Source: Cyclobacteriaceae bacterium
GTDB lineage: Bacteria > Bacteroidota > Bacteroidia > Cytophagales > Cyclobacteriaceae
Direction of reading: 5' to 3'
Assembly: GCA_023151255.1 (NCBI GenBank)
Contig: JAKLJG010000020.1
Location: 1 to 34,524, forward strand
Length of the DNA: 34,524 bases
Numbering within the stretch: the first letter of the stretch is position 1; every line of letters starts with the position of its first letter. The notes under the pieces were generated by a model that did not search any database, was not told the origin of the DNA, and worked only from the letters and a program-made list of their open reading frames with translations. The translations under genes and the position numbers were made by a program. Shown piece by piece: positions 7,873 through 19,422 of the stretch.

Positions 7873-8469
7873 TTGATTTCGGCTGAACTACTGGAGCAGT
7901 ACAAGGCGCGGCTCGTTCGGGTACGTAAAGACCAGGTATTATTTGAACAAGGCGACATGGCTGCTGACTATTTTCAGGTGGAAGAAGGCCAGGTGCGCAT
8001 GTACATCCTCAACCACGAAGGCCAGGAGTTTACACAGGGTATTTTTCATGCTGGCGAAAGTTTTGGCGAACCTCCCCTGCTTGGAAATTTTCCCTATCCC
8101 GCAACGGCAATTGCTCTCATACCCGGCAAGGTGTGGCGGTTGCCCAAAGCCGAATTCCTGCTATTACTTAAAAACAATTTTGACTTGCACCTGAAACTAG
8201 ACCACGTTCTGTGCAACCGCTTACAGTACAAGTCGATGATACTGACTGAGATCTCCTCGCACACACCCGAGCACCGCCTTACCACGATATTAAAGTACCT
8301 TAAATCCAAAATCGATCCCGGAGGTAGCAGCCAGCCGATCATAATACCTTACACCCGGCAGCAACTGGCCGATATGACCAGCCTGCGCGTGGAAACCGTG
8401 ATACGCACCATTAAAAAGATGGAGCACAGTGGCAAAATTAAATTACAAGGGCACAAAATTTTGTTTTGA
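7873..8469 (+). CDS. Crp/Fnr family transcriptional regulator
   Basis: The 198-residue protein has a cyclic-nucleotide-binding-type beta barrel (about 10-115; LFEQGDMAADYFQVEEGQVRMY and FGEPPLLGNFPYPATAIA) and a C-terminal helix-turn-helix (about 150-180; YTRQQLADMTSLRVETVIRTIKKME). The start is the TTG at 7873. An in-frame TAA at 7858-7860 blocks anything further upstream, and the next ATG would remove the first strand of the barrel. No Fnr-type cysteine cluster is present, so an iron-sulfur oxygen sensor is unlikely; the ligand is unknown. It is a single plus-strand gene between two minus-strand blocks. The palindrome at 7833-7854 is probably its own operator. Confidence 0.9.
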   Translation: MISAELLEQYKARLVRVRKDQVLFEQGDMAADYFQVEEGQVRMYILNHEGQEFTQGIFHAGESFGEPPLLGNFPYPATAIALIPGKVWRLPKAEFLLLLKNNFDLHLKLDHVLCNRLQYKSMILTEISSHTPEHRLTTILKYLKSKIDPGGSSQPIIIPYTRQQLADMTSLRVETVIRTIKKMEHSGKIKLQGHKILF

Positions 8470-15949: not shown

Positions 15950-16285
15950 TTACCGGATAACCTTTCCGCTCCAGCTGCTGATGCCGCCCCGCATGTTAAT
16001 GGTTTTAAAGCCCCGCTCAGCCATGATAGCACAGGCGCGGGCACTGCGACCACCGCTTAAGCAGTATACAAGCCAGGTTTTATTCTTATCAAGTTGTTCA
16101 ATTTTGTTCATAAAGGACGAAGACGAAATATCAGCATGAACAGCTTTAGGTATGTACCCGCCACGAAATTCGCCTTGTGTTCGTACATCCAGAATGCCAA
16201 TGGATTTATCGCTTTCAATCAGTTGTGCTGCTTCCGAAGCGCTGATGTCTTCGTAATTTTTAGTACGTGAAAATAATCCAAACAT
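15950..16285 (-). CDS. Single-domain rhodanese-like sulfurtransferase
   Basis: The protein is one rhodanese domain of 111 residues. ILDVRTQGEFRGGYIPKAVH (31-50) is the typical CDC25-like entry, and the active-site loop is VYC75LSGGRS with catalytic Cys75, so it should be active as a persulfide carrier. There is no signal peptide, so it is cytoplasmic. It lies 53 bp after the CstB-like fusion on the same strand with no clear promoter of its own, and probably receives or hands on sulfane sulfur in the same pathway. Confidence 0.93.
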   Translation of the reverse strand: MFGLFSRTKNYEDISASEAAQLIESDKSIGILDVRTQGEFRGGYIPKAVHADISSSSFMNKIEQLDKNKTWLVYCLSGGRSARACAIMAERGFKTINMRGGISSWSGKVIR

Positions 16286-16338: not shown

Positions 16339-17754
16339 TTACTTACTGGCTGTTGTTGAGCAGGTGTAATCCGTTTTAGGAACACCGGCAGCTACCATGG
16401 CTTTAAAGCCCCCGGCAACATCCACCAGGTTATTCCAACCACGGGCTTTTAGAATAGAAGAGGCCGTCATTGAGCGGTAGCCGCCCGCGCAATGGATGTA
16501 AACGGTTTCATTCTTTGGAATTTCAGCCAGGTGTTCATTCAGGTATTCCAGTGGAATATTAATTGCACCTTCCATGTGCTCGGCACTATGCTCTCCAGGC
16601 TTGCGCACATCAATCACTTTAATTTTGCTTGTTTTTGCACGCATGGCAAATTCTGTAGCCGGTATTGATTCAATTTTATCAACATCCTTTCCGGCATTTT
16701 TCCAAGCCTCGAATCCGCCTTTCAGATAGCCCAACGTATTATCATACCCTACCCGGGCAAGCCTTGTAACCGCCTCCGTCTCTCGTCCGGGTTCGGCAAC
16801 AATCAAAATCGGATGATTTACTCCGGGGATCAGTGTTCCGGCCCAGGGAGCAAAGTTTCCGTCAAGACTGATGTTAATTGAATTAGGTACAAATCCCTCA
16901 GCAAAGGTTTGTTGATGGCGTGTATCCAGCACCAGTGCACCGGTTTCATTAGCGGCAGCTTCAAATTCGTCACAGGTAAGTGCCCGGGTACCCTTCTTTA
17001 ACACCGTATCAATATTTTCATAACCTTCTTTATTCAGCCTAACATTCTCAGGGAAATAAGCCGGAGGCGGAAGAAGGCCATCGGTAACTTCTTTTATAAA
17101 TTCTTCGCGTGTCATATTGCTACGAAGGGCATAGTTTACTTTTTTCTGGTTGCCCAGGGTATCTACAGTTTCTTTCATCATGTTTTTACCGCAGGCAGAA
17201 CCTGCACCGTGTGCCGGGTACACAATCACATCATCGGCTAACGGCATAATTTTAGTACGCAGCGAATCGAATAAAAGACCAGCCAATTGCTCCTGTGTCA
17301 TGTGCGCTGCTTTCTGGGCCAGATCAGGCCGGCCTACATCACCCAGGAACAACGTATCGCCACTAAAAATGGCGTAATCTTTTCCGTGTTCATCCTTAAG
17401 CAAGTAGGTGGTTGACTCCATGGTGTGTCCGGGCGTATGAAGTACCTTGATGGTAAGCTTACCAACTTTTAGCTCTTCGCCATCGGTGGCAATGTGGGCT
17501 TTGAAAGAAGGTGTTGCGGTAGGTCCATAGACAATAGTCGCTCCGGTTTTGGAAGCCAGATCAATATGCCCTGAAACAAAATCAGCATGAAAATGTGTTT
17601 CCAATACATACTTGATTTTTGCCCCGTTCTTTTCGGCCTTTTCAATGTACGGGCTGGTTTCACGCAGCGGATCAACAATGGCAGCTTCGCCAGCTGATTC
17701 AATATAATAGGCACCTTGAGCGAGGCAACCGGTGTAAATTTGTTCAACTTTCAT
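16339..17754 (-). CDS. CstB-like persulfide dioxygenase / pseudorhodanese / rhodanese fusion
   Basis: The chosen start (MKVEQIYTG) gives 471 residues. Starting at 17823 would place 23 extra residues across the -7 box and part of the operator, so it is rejected. The N-terminal metallo-beta-lactamase domain (1-230) has H54-F-H56-A-D58, His110, Asp133 and His182, the mononuclear iron set of ETHE1-type persulfide dioxygenases. Cys188 in GSACGK may match the extra cysteine of S. aureus CstB. The first rhodanese domain (about 255-355) has no active-site cysteine (VAEPGRE at 319-325), a pseudorhodanese. The second (about 365-460) has active Cys422 in HCAGGYRS. The order matches CstB, which converts low-molecular-weight persulfides to thiosulfate. 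It sits downstream of tauE and upstream of the rhodanese. Confidence 0.93.
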   Translation of the reverse strand: MKVEQIYTGCLAQGAYYIESAGEAAIVDPLRETSPYIEKAEKNGAKIKYVLETHFHADFVSGHIDLASKTGATIVYGPTATPSFKAHIATDGEELKVGKLTIKVLHTPGHTMESTTYLLKDEHGKDYAIFSGDTLFLGDVGRPDLAQKAAHMTQEQLAGLLFDSLRTKIMPLADDVIVYPAHGAGSACGKNMMKETVDTLGNQKKVNYALRSNMTREEFIKEVTDGLLPPPAYFPENVRLNKEGYENIDTVLKKGTRALTCDEFEAAANETGALVLDTRHQQTFAEGFVPNSINISLDGNFAPWAGTLIPGVNHPILIVAEPGRETEAVTRLARVGYDNTLGYLKGGFEAWKNAGKDVDKIESIPATEFAMRAKTSKIKVIDVRKPGEHSAEHMEGAINIPLEYLNEHLAEIPKNETVYIHCAGGYRSMTASSILKARGWNNLVDVAGGFKAMVAAGVPKTDYTCSTTASK

Positions 17755-17778: not shown

Positions 17779-17824
17779 CAAAGATAGCAGATTAAAGTAC
17801 GGGTTCTCCGTGATTTTTGTCACG
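17779..17824 (-). promoter_or_regulatory. Promoter and Crp-like operator of the cstB-like gene
   Basis: On the minus strand a perfect -7 box TATCTTTG lies at 17779-17786, 24 bp before the ATG at 17754. No TTG is found at the -33 distance. Instead CGTGA-N6-TCACG, a perfect 16-bp palindrome with Crp-like half-sites, occupies 17809-17824, its centre 37.5 bp upstream of the last base of the -7 box. This is the class II activator position. The palindrome begins 2 bp after the tauE stop codon. Confidence 0.72.
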
Positions 17825-17826
17825 CC

Positions 17827-18624
17827 TTATAAAAATTCGCTGAGCAGAATATAACTGGCCATCGCAACCACAAACCATCCAAATCCTTTTTTAAGGTTAC
17901 TTCCGGAAATAAAACGCGACATGTAAATGCCAATAAAAATACCGGCAATAGCAATAGCTGAAACAATGAACAGAAAAGTAAAGTTTATAGTTTGCCCTGA
18001 CCCCACATCGCCCAAAAAGCCAATCAGTGATTTCGCTGCAATTATTAACAACGATGTACCAACTGCCTTTTTCATTGGCAGTTTGGCCAACAGTACCAGT
18101 GCAGGTATTATCAGAAACCCTCCTCCGGCACCAACAATACCGGTTAATACTCCAACAACTGTTCCCTCAAGGGCTATCATCGGATAATTGTATTTAATTA
18201 CTGAATCTTCCTGATCCAGGCGCTTATCCGCTATCATACTGTATGCAGCTGCCAGCATAATCAATGCAAAGAATACCATGATGGCCATATCGCGGCTTAT
18301 CATTAAAGAGCCAATACTAAACAGCACATCCGGAACCGCGGGAATGATAAATCTGCGTGTTAAATAAACGGCAATAAAAGAAGGAACAGCAAATACAACG
18401 GCCGTGCGTAAATCCACCTGGTTATTCAGTGCACTGCGAATACCGCCAACCAAGGCCGTTATCCCTACAATAAATAAAGAATACGCAGTAGCCAGCGTGG
18501 GTTCTATGGCAAACAGGTAAACGAGTACCGGTACGGTTAAAATTGATCCTCCTCCCCCAATCAGGCCGAGAGCAATACCAATTAAAGCAGATGCGAAATA
18601 TCCCAGGAGTTCCTGTGTCTCCAT
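17827..18624 (-). CDS. TauE/SafE family sulfite/organosulfur exporter
   Basis: The 265-residue membrane protein shows the duplicated TauE/SafE motif: LIGIALGLIGGGGSILTVPVL (about 14-34) and VVGVLTGIVGAGGGFLIIPAL (about 155-175), with seven to eight predicted membrane segments. The family exports sulfite, sulfoacetate or related anions, or takes up small organosulfur compounds. Placed directly before a persulfide dioxygenase fusion, export of sulfite or thiosulfate is the most natural role, as proposed for TauE in the staphylococcal cst operon. The gene is 68 bp after the Crp/Fnr gene, and 72 bp holding a promoter separate it from the cstB-like gene. Confidence 0.93.
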   Translation of the reverse strand: METQELLGYFASALIGIALGLIGGGGSILTVPVLVYLFAIEPTLATAYSLFIVGITALVGGIRSALNNQVDLRTAVVFAVPSFIAVYLTRRFIIPAVPDVLFSIGSLMISRDMAIMVFFALIMLAAAYSMIADKRLDQEDSVIKYNYPMIALEGTVVGVLTGIVGAGGGFLIIPALVLLAKLPMKKAVGTSLLIIAAKSLIGFLGDVGSGQTINFTFLFIVSAIAIAGIFIGIYMSRFISGSNLKKGFGWFVVAMASYILLSEFL

Positions 18625-18652
18625 ATTCTACACTGTTGAAAATATCGTGCTG

Positions 18653-18697
18653 CAAAGGTCAGCAAATATCCGGCACCATTATGTGACCCGGGTTACA
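18653..18697 (-). promoter_or_regulatory. Promoter and Crp-like operator of the tauE gene
   Basis: On the plus strand TGTGA-CCCGGG-TTACA (18682-18697) is a near-perfect 16-bp palindrome with one asymmetric position; it overlaps the stop codon of the crp gene. On the minus strand GACCTTTG (18653-18660) matches TAnnTTTG in 7 of 8 bases, its last base 36.5 bp from the palindrome centre. An alternative 7/8 match, GATATTTG, lies at 18663-18670. No -33 TTG is present. Confidence 0.6.
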
Positions 18698-19322
18698 AAT
18701 TGATATTGGTAATCTCGTTCCGAGAGATGGCAACTCGTTTCTGGTTTTCGAGTTTTTTAAGCAAGCGGGATATAACTTCGCGGGAGGAATTAAGGTCATC
18801 GGCAATTTGCTGATGGGTAATCGTAAGTGAGTTGCCCAGCGTATCAAATTGGCGCTTCAGGTAAAACTCCAGCTTTTCGTCCATGGAGTGAAAGGCAATC
18901 TGATCAATTACGGTAAGCAGTTCTTCAAACCGTGAACGGTAAGTTTCCAGCACAAAGTAATACCAGTTGCGGTGGTCGCGCATGAGGGTATCCATGTGCT
19001 GCAGTGGAATTGCAAGAGCTTTAACGTACGTTAAAGCCTTAGCCTTAATGGCGCTTGCCTCATTTTTTGTGGCACAAATCATAGAAAGCGCACACGCATT
19101 GCCCGGTTCCAGGTAATAAAGAAAAAACTCCTCACCGTTTTCGCCTTCTCGATAAAGTTTTACCCGGCCTTCCAGGATAACAAGCGAATTTTTAAAATAC
19201 TGACCGGGGCGCATCAGTAACTCGCCTTCGTTGAACTCTACCTCGTTCCCTACTTTTTCAATAAACTCCATCAAGGAGGAGTCGAACTGCGGGAAGAGTT
19301 GCTGAACTTGTGTGGTTTGCAA
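18693..19322 (-). CDS. Crp/Fnr family regulator of the sulfur operon
   Basis: The protein has 209 residues with a TTG start at 19322. The longer reading (ATG at 19379) lies inside the tRNA-Leu gene. Starting at the first downstream ATG (19271) would delete QLFPQFDSSL, which belongs to the family's N-terminal helix. The effector domain (about 22-125; ILEGRVKLYREGENGEEFFLYYLEPG) is followed by the long dimer helix and a helix-turn-helix (about 167-192; ITHQQIADDLNSSREVISRLLKKLE). Cys77 and Cys83 lie in NACALSMIC, facing the place where cAMP would bind in Crp, and no cAMP-type R-S/T signature is seen. Inference: a redox or persulfide sensor for the genes that follow. Its stop codon overlaps the tauE operator. 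Confidence 0.9.
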   Translation of the reverse strand: MQTTQVQQLFPQFDSSLMEFIEKVGNEVEFNEGELLMRPGQYFKNSLVILEGRVKLYREGENGEEFFLYYLEPGNACALSMICATKNEASAIKAKALTYVKALAIPLQHMDTLMRDHRNWYYFVLETYRSRFEELLTVIDQIAFHSMDEKLEFYLKRQFDTLGNSLTITHQQIADDLNSSREVISRLLKKLENQKRVAISRNEITNINL

Positions 19323-19338
19323 AGCTAAGAGGATTTTG

Positions 19339-19422
19339 TACCCGGGGCCGGAGTCGAACCGGCACAGTATTGCTACCATTGGTGTTTGAGACCAACGCGT
19401 CTACCAATTCCGCCACCCGGGC
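19339..19422 (-). tRNA. tRNA-Leu, anticodon CAA
   Basis: The minus strand folds as an 84-nt class II tRNA. The acceptor is GCCCGGG/CCCGGGT (one G-U pair) with discriminator A. The D-arm has GCG/CGC around AATTGGTAGA, and the anticodon stem TTGGT/ACCAA has the loop CTCAAAC (anticodon CAA, reading UUG). A 15-nt variable arm contains GTA/TAC, and the T-arm is GCCGG-TTCGACT-CCGGC. The 3' CCA is not encoded. It has a very good promoter upstream (19437-19466), and the crp gene begins 16 bp after its 3' end. Confidence 0.97.

Follow-up and report, generated by a model that had tools for sequence, protein, structure and literature searches.

Two palindromes in a Cyclobacteriaceae locus are, with good probability, class II operators, centered at -41.5 and -42.5, through which a Crp-fold activator, most likely the product of the adjacent regulator gene, would control promoters of reactive-sulfur genes. 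The support for this reading comes from the operators themselves, their fixed spacing to a -7 box that carries A at -11, the lack of a -33 element, and the conservation of the whole arrangement across Bacteroidota. In the proposed mechanism, the regulator dimer would bind TGTGAC-N4-GTCACA via an Arg-Glu-x-x-x-Arg recognition helix, replace the -33 contact, and recruit RNA polymerase to the otherwise weak tauE and cstB-rhodanese promoters; its further targets in the same genome probably include two thioredoxins and a rhodanese, and perhaps also a YgaP-like membrane protein.

Predicted operators and promoters in the window

The window, i.e., the whole stretch of DNA that was analyzed, comprises 34,524 nt of contig JAKLJG010000020.1 from the Cyclobacteriaceae bacterium assembly GCA_023151255.1. 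Its relevant features are the following:

19338-19422, minus strand: tRNA-Leu(CAA), directly 5' of the regulator gene
18693-19322, minus strand: Crp/Fnr-type regulator gene (Pfam match; likeliest start TTG at 19322-19320)
18682-18697, minus strand: predicted tauE operator TGTAACCCGGGTCACA, a palindrome that takes in the TAA stop codon of the regulator gene
18653-18660, minus strand: predicted tauE promoter -7 box GACCTTTG, ending 29 bp from the operator end
17827-18624, minus strand: TauE/SafE family transporter gene (Pfam match)
17809-17824, minus strand: predicted cstB-like operator CGTGACAAAAATCACG, a palindrome 2 bp past the tauE stop codon
17779-17786, minus strand: predicted cstB-like promoter -7 box TATCTTTG, ending 30 bp from the operator end
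16339-17754, minus strand: CstB-like gene encoding a metallo-beta-lactamase domain (persulfide dioxygenase type) and two rhodanese domains (Pfam and PDB matches)
15950-16285, minus strand: single-domain rhodanese gene (Pfam match), probably on the transcript of the cstB-like gene

The gene names used in the preliminary description of this DNA agree with the domain and structure matches: Pfam supports TauE and the Crp-type regulator, and the CstB-like protein aligns over nearly its full length with the PDB chains 3tp9 (E value of 1.3e-71) and 3r2u (E value of 2.2e-60), the latter of which we take to be the CstB protein of Staphylococcus aureus. That description also located both palindromes and both -7 boxes correctly, as it did the distances from the palindrome center to the end of the box (36.5 bp for tauE and 37.5 bp for the cstB-like gene) and the absence of TTG at -33 from both promoters. 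Its claim that other promoters in the window do carry this element stands in part: it holds for tRNA-Leu (TTG 19 bp 5' of TAAATTTG) and phoH (TTG 20 bp 5' of TATTTTTG), and a scan of the listed open reading frame (ORF) starts found no promoter with a -33 TTG at start 10726, taken as that of the S46 gene.

Both operators are packed into gene junctions, with the regulator stop codon lying inside the tauE operator in the context TTG TAA CC. At the other end of the regulator gene, the TTG start lies only 15 nt behind tRNA-Leu(CAA), so that the regulator and the tRNA may share the tRNA promoter (the -33 TTG plus TAAATTTG, the nearest promoter found for the regulator) and be split by tRNA processing.

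In the whole window, the pattern GTRAY-N4-RTYAC occurs only at the tauE and cstB-like sites (0.36 occurrences expected), and the combination of the palindrome with TTTG at 29 or 30 bp is found in the same two places only (0.01 expected), the expectations being derived from 300 first-order Markov sequences. According to the available part of a study of mapped transcript starts in Flavobacterium psychrophilum, the TAnnTTTG box occupies positions -12 to -5 (PMC9723704). With the box so placed, a gap of 29 bp between operator and box end puts the operator center at -41.5, and a gap of 30 bp puts it at -42.5. Judged by this distance to the box, both palindromes lie where class II operators, centered near -41.5, are expected.

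Conservation of the predicted operator and its spacing

Conservation was assessed in 139 loci (855,317 bases) around relatives of the window regulator, taken from a set of 144 from which five loci of the window's own genome were left out and the window's own locus (L003) was kept. These loci are partly nonindependent, as many come from close Flavobacterium relatives and the sites in L005 and L037 are identical. Judging by record titles and the taxonomy of the tree, they span Cytophagales, Chitinophagaceae, Sphingobacteriaceae, and Flavobacteriaceae. One locus (L087) belongs by its title to a metagenome-assembled genome of Sphingomonadales, and its regulator pairs in the tree with one from Chitinophagaceae (support 100/90); the record is perhaps mislabeled.

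The exact pattern GTGAY-N4-RTCAC occurs 117 times in this sample, in 73 of the 139 loci, as against 1, 1, 3, 1, and 2 occurrences of five control (permuted) palindromes and 1 and 2 occurrences when the spacer is altered by one; the FNR-type pattern TTGAY-N4-RTCAA has 9 exact occurrences. When up to one mismatch is allowed, there are 448 site-strands; TTTG follows the 16-mer at a distance of exactly 29 bp in 141 of them and of 30 bp in 14, and each of the remaining offsets from 10 to 59 has it in 0 to 10. Collapsing the 117 labeled gap-29 sites at 75% identity leaves 80 nonredundant ones. Of these, 77 have A at -11, even though the selection was on TTTG only, and 27 have T at -12, so that the promoters look weak without help. 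Positions -31 to -13 carry at most 0.21 bits each, and positions -33/-32 show a preference for G and T/A, with no TTG.

The test proposed in the preliminary description, a search for the operators in orthologous loci, turned out in favor of its class II reading: the predicted operator arrangement is present in 76 of 87 upstream regions of tauE and 39 of 53 of cstB-like genes and in none of either with a reversed-palindrome control, with the spacing kept at 29, or sometimes 30, bp. These counts cover only regions long enough to judge and include some near-duplicate loci. By the same definition, the other 25 of the 140 upstream regions lack a site, and a site with one other mismatch is present in five of the loci concerned (L042, L045, L052, L056, and L112). 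In L027 (position 2301) and L028 (position 2248; coordinates of the locus turned so that the regulator reads forward), an asymmetric sequence, TGTGACTTTTGTTGCAGAC, replaces the palindrome before TauE, and it recurs behind TauE in L028 (position 3125). Allowing one mismatch yields 156 sites in 107 of the 139 loci, and the gene behind the site encodes TauE in 76 cases, a CstB-like protein in 47, the regulator in 4, a rhodanese in 2, and other or unlabeled products in 27, a tally biased towards neighbors of the regulator because the loci were fetched around it. For the 123 tauE and cstB-like sites, the median distance from the predicted transcript start to the ATG is 15 nt.

Two surveys were independent of the regulator. 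One, of 60 genomes of the same family, found 109 occurrences of the exact pattern with a gap of 29 or 30, compared with 20 for the reversed pattern. Among the 30 family loci that were fetched, the site falls within a long ORF or opposite one in 10, and one of these sites (L193) is a cstB promoter all the same. In the phylum, 72 of 392 genomes have an exact gap-29 match. The matches make up 107 rows, 88 of which were compared with regulator positions, the other 19 coming from genomes with no listed regulator match; for 78 of the 88 the genome has a regulator position, for 6 it has a match without a position, and for 4 it has no match. Restricting the comparison to the window's own class or nearer taxa, the exact gap-29 match is found in 36 of 89 genomes with a regulator match at an E value of 1e-15 and in 3 of 16 without one; the exact pattern is blind to the GTTAC half-site seen in many Flavobacterium tauE sites. 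Outside that class, eight pattern rows share one near-identical sequence, presumably a coding motif of ABC ATPases.

In 28 loci fetched from the phylum survey (L217 to L244), the genes behind the sites include those for TauE (4 loci), CstB-like proteins, rhodanese, thioredoxin, peroxiredoxin-like and OsmC-like proteins, cysteine dioxygenase, two pyridine-nucleotide disulfide oxidoreductases, YgaP-like proteins, and a relative of the regulator. Most of these names were assigned by eye; Pfam gave CDO_I for L227 and Pyr_redox_2 for L235 and returned no match for the L220 stretch. Nine of the 28 sites may be due to chance, as six lie opposite coding sequence and three have no called downstream gene.

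In the window's own genome, palindromes counted by themselves, with at most one mismatch, show no enrichment (147, versus 195 for the reversed pattern), so that selectivity would rest on the spacing. A scan with two mismatches was at chance level (59 rows versus 63 for the control), and only rows with up to one mismatch were therefore used. By this definition, there are eight gap-29 rows, five of them placed as promoters:

C33:224112 and C11:359075: sites each before a thioredoxin gene (Pfam)
C11:260739: site before a rhodanese gene (Pfam)
C39:171316: site before a 27-codon ORF and a YgaP-like membrane protein gene (Pfam)
tauE site of the window

The other three (C2:33065, C14:980, and C33:304671) look like chance matches. 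With a gap of 30, there are seven rows, versus two for the reversed pattern; three of them precede the cstB-like gene, a UspA-like gene beside a P-type ATPase-like gene, and a gene for a small membrane protein, the last two named by eye. The UspA-like site lies at C42:82498-82542, and gap-30 matches in L180, L207, and L209 precede similar proteins, by eye maybe cytochromes. These UspA-like and cytochrome-like sites perhaps belong to another Crp/Fnr regulon.

The adjacent regulator and its paralogues

The adjacent regulator belongs to the Crp/Fnr superfamily, with matches to PF00027, PF13545, and PF00325 above the cut-offs. Its AlphaFold2 model has a mean pLDDT of 87.3, and the best Foldseek matches of the predicted structure are 3dv8, NtcA, and CRP. 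In E. coli CRP, the recognition helix reads TGTGA through Arg180, Glu181, and Arg185; the residues aligned with them, Arg182, Glu183, and Arg187, are found in 170, 169, and 170 of 170 relatives, respectively. Crp proper can be set aside: the NCBIfam CRP score is 42.6, against a cut-off of 266, and of the two CRP residues that contact cAMP, Glu72 falls opposite a gap in the alignment and the position of Arg82 is not occupied by Arg, which makes cAMP an unlikely ligand. Nor is the protein an FNR, which has four cysteines for its [4Fe-4S] cluster; the regulator has only two, and its NCBIfam Fnr score is 22.7, against 228.

These two cysteines, Cys78 and Cys84 (numbered as in P0001, which begins one codon before the likeliest start), are highly conserved. 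Cys78 is present in 170 of 170 distinct relatives, and Cys84 is present in 117 of 118 relatives with at least 50% identity, in all 45 with 38 to 50%, and in none of the seven below 38%. The closer relatives (162 of 163 with Cys84) thus share the pattern of two or more conserved cysteines expected of reactive-sulfur regulators. In the model, Cys78 lies just before and Cys84 inside a short predicted helix (residues 79 to 86) at the place of the cAMP-binding loop of Crp; the block of residues 81 to 90, containing Cys84, is its least certain part (mean pLDDT of 65, compared with 85 for the Cys78 block), and a single-chain prediction carries no information on sulfur chemistry. The same Cys-x5-Cys motif is found at the aligned place in 3dv8, the closest protein of solved structure, which comes from Eubacterium rectale (Firmicutes).

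The link between the predicted sites and the adjacent regulator, as drawn in the preliminary description, is a good one. A regulator relative lies within 200 bp of 13 of the 78 phylum matches whose genomes have a regulator position, where the chance estimate is well under one. The association is not exclusive, as only six of these relatives are close (40 to 59% identity; G369, G692, G710, G508, G163, and G700) and the other seven are distant (30 to 37%). Likewise, 11 chosen site-regulator pairs from the family draw, all within 43 bp, comprise four close relatives and seven distant ones.

These observations slightly raise the odds, at the expense of the main reading, of the alternative that the sites are class II operators whose main activator is another Crp-type protein, above all a paralogue encoded in the same genome (C39:170700-171272), or that the two proteins share a regulon. 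This B-type paralogue retains Cys78 and has no Cys84; its recognition helix, S-R-E-V-I-T-R, is nearly the same as that of the window regulator, and 44 bp behind its gene there is a perfect predicted class II site, GTGATCAACGTCAC, with a gap of 29, followed by the YgaP-like membrane protein gene. The distant relatives (28 to 37% identity) in other genomes similarly have a class II site 3 to 44 bp behind them, and the seven relatives below 38% identity, whose loci were fetched via pattern matches, each adjoin a YgaP-like gene. The pairing of the paralogue with a YgaP-like gene recurs in at least six other Bacteroidota loci (L192, L196, L197, L202, L241, and L243). With a helix so nearly identical and a site of this type, cross-talk is likely, and since the paralogue probably reads the same motif, shared control is possible. 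Nevertheless, a leading role for the paralogue appears unlikely. In the tree, the five B-type rows that were retained all lie to the same side of a branch (support 98/92). The A-type gene is syntenic with tauE and cstB across several orders, and the tauE and/or cstB sites are kept in the four family-draw genomes with the nearest relatives of the window regulator (G015, G023, G024, and G028), which show no B-type match. The synteny and these four genomes favor the adjacent regulator, which is most likely the activator at both operators. The window also encodes another Crp-like protein (7873-8469, plus strand); it is an unlikely binder because its helix, V-E-T-V-I-R, is unlike the TGTGA type.

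Signal, alternative readings, and known systems

The likely signal is reactive sulfane sulfur (persulfide or polysulfide), which would be read by Cys78 and Cys84 at the place where Crp binds cAMP. Persulfide sensing is suggested by gene content and conservation. Predicted sites precede tauE, cstB-like, rhodanese, and thioredoxin genes. In its broadest form, the proposal is that a Crp fold whose cAMP pocket has been rebuilt as a two-cysteine persulfide sensor serves as the main activator of reactive-sulfur defense across Bacteroidota, with one rigid promoter design (center at -41.5, no -33 element, NAnnTTTG); this larger picture is tentative, and we lean slightly against it as a whole. There is also a sizeable, if doubtful, possibility that the operator and activator are correctly assigned and the signal is a different one, such as redox state, oxygen, nitrosative stress, or a metal, acting via the cysteines. 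Crp/Fnr proteins sense many signals, and the genes behind the sites include those for thioredoxins, the peroxiredoxin-like protein, and the gap-30 UspA-like protein beside the P-type ATPase-like one (the last three named by eye). Against such a signal stand the commonest targets, which function in persulfide and sulfite handling (TauE and CstB-like proteins account for 76 and 47 of the 156 sites, respectively, in loci fetched around the regulator).

A regulator that binds the same sites and represses, to be released by sulfur as with CstR or SqrR, is quite improbable. An operator next to a promoter could be used for repression, and CstR, SqrR, and BigR, which are known to respond to sulfide, act as repressors, as described in the accessible portions of two reviews (PMC9774590 and PMC8148161). 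However, a spacing fixed to within one bp at -41.5 and a missing -33 element are typical of activation, and such constancy would have no explanation under repression, which is also at odds with promoters that look weak (T at -12 in 27 of 80). That the palindromes reflect nothing beyond chance, or shared ancestry without function, has a negligible probability. Two short palindromes per window are unremarkable by themselves (0.36 expected) and many of the Flavobacterium loci are close relatives, but chance is ruled out by the spacing peak and the control palindromes; function is also favored by the A at -11, which was no part of the site selection, by sites at unlinked sulfur genes of the same genome, and by the matches beside regulators in distant genomes.

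Control by sulfide and persulfide is known mainly via CsoR-type, ArsR-type, and sigma54-linked regulators, according to the consulted part of PMC9774590. The reactive-sulfur regulators named in the accessible sections of that review and of PMC8148161 are CstR, SqrR/BigR, and FisR, and the Crp-family regulators mentioned there are only the CO sensor CooA and FNR. The excerpt of another paper (PMC8014003) ties Crp/Fnr proteins to denitrification. Among the literature matches listed, taken by title and the start of the abstract and with subscription papers mostly outside their scope, none dealt with a Crp-type sulfide or persulfide regulator, in Bacteroidota or elsewhere. If the proposed reading is true, a Crp-type activator would bring a new fold and an activation logic to this control in a large phylum whose members live in soil, the sea, and the gut.

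The cst operon of S. aureus resembles the system predicted here in combining a CstB-type persulfide dioxygenase with sulfur-transfer genes under a dithiol sensor, CstR (PMC9774590 and PMC8148161, in their accessible parts); however, CstR is an all-helical CsoR-like repressor, whereas the window encodes a Crp-fold protein with sites at the activator position. SqrR and BigR, in the same portion of PMC9774590, sense sulfide with two cysteines that form a tetrasulfide bond and control sulfide-oxidation genes, but they are ArsR-family repressors whose fold is unrelated to that of the Crp-type regulator. FisR from Cupriavidus pinatubonensis is an activator that responds to reactive sulfur through cysteines (per that portion of PMC9774590) and, by the title of a reference cited there, is sigma54 dependent, in contrast to the sigmaA-type TTTG box predicted here. 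The closest solved relative in both sequence and fold is EUBREC_1222 (3dv8), in which Cys-x5-Cys is aligned and whose PDB title says just that it is a putative regulator; if the proposed reading is true, the same cysteine pair in this Firmicutes protein would point to an old and wider class of sensors. With E. coli CRP, which binds the palindrome TGTGA-N6-TCACA and whose class II operators are centered at -41.5, the system shares the fold, the Arg-Glu-x-x-x-Arg recognition residues, the palindrome, and the predicted operator position, and it differs in that Glu72 and Arg82 are not kept, the -7 box is of the Bacteroidota type, and the predicted targets are sulfur genes.
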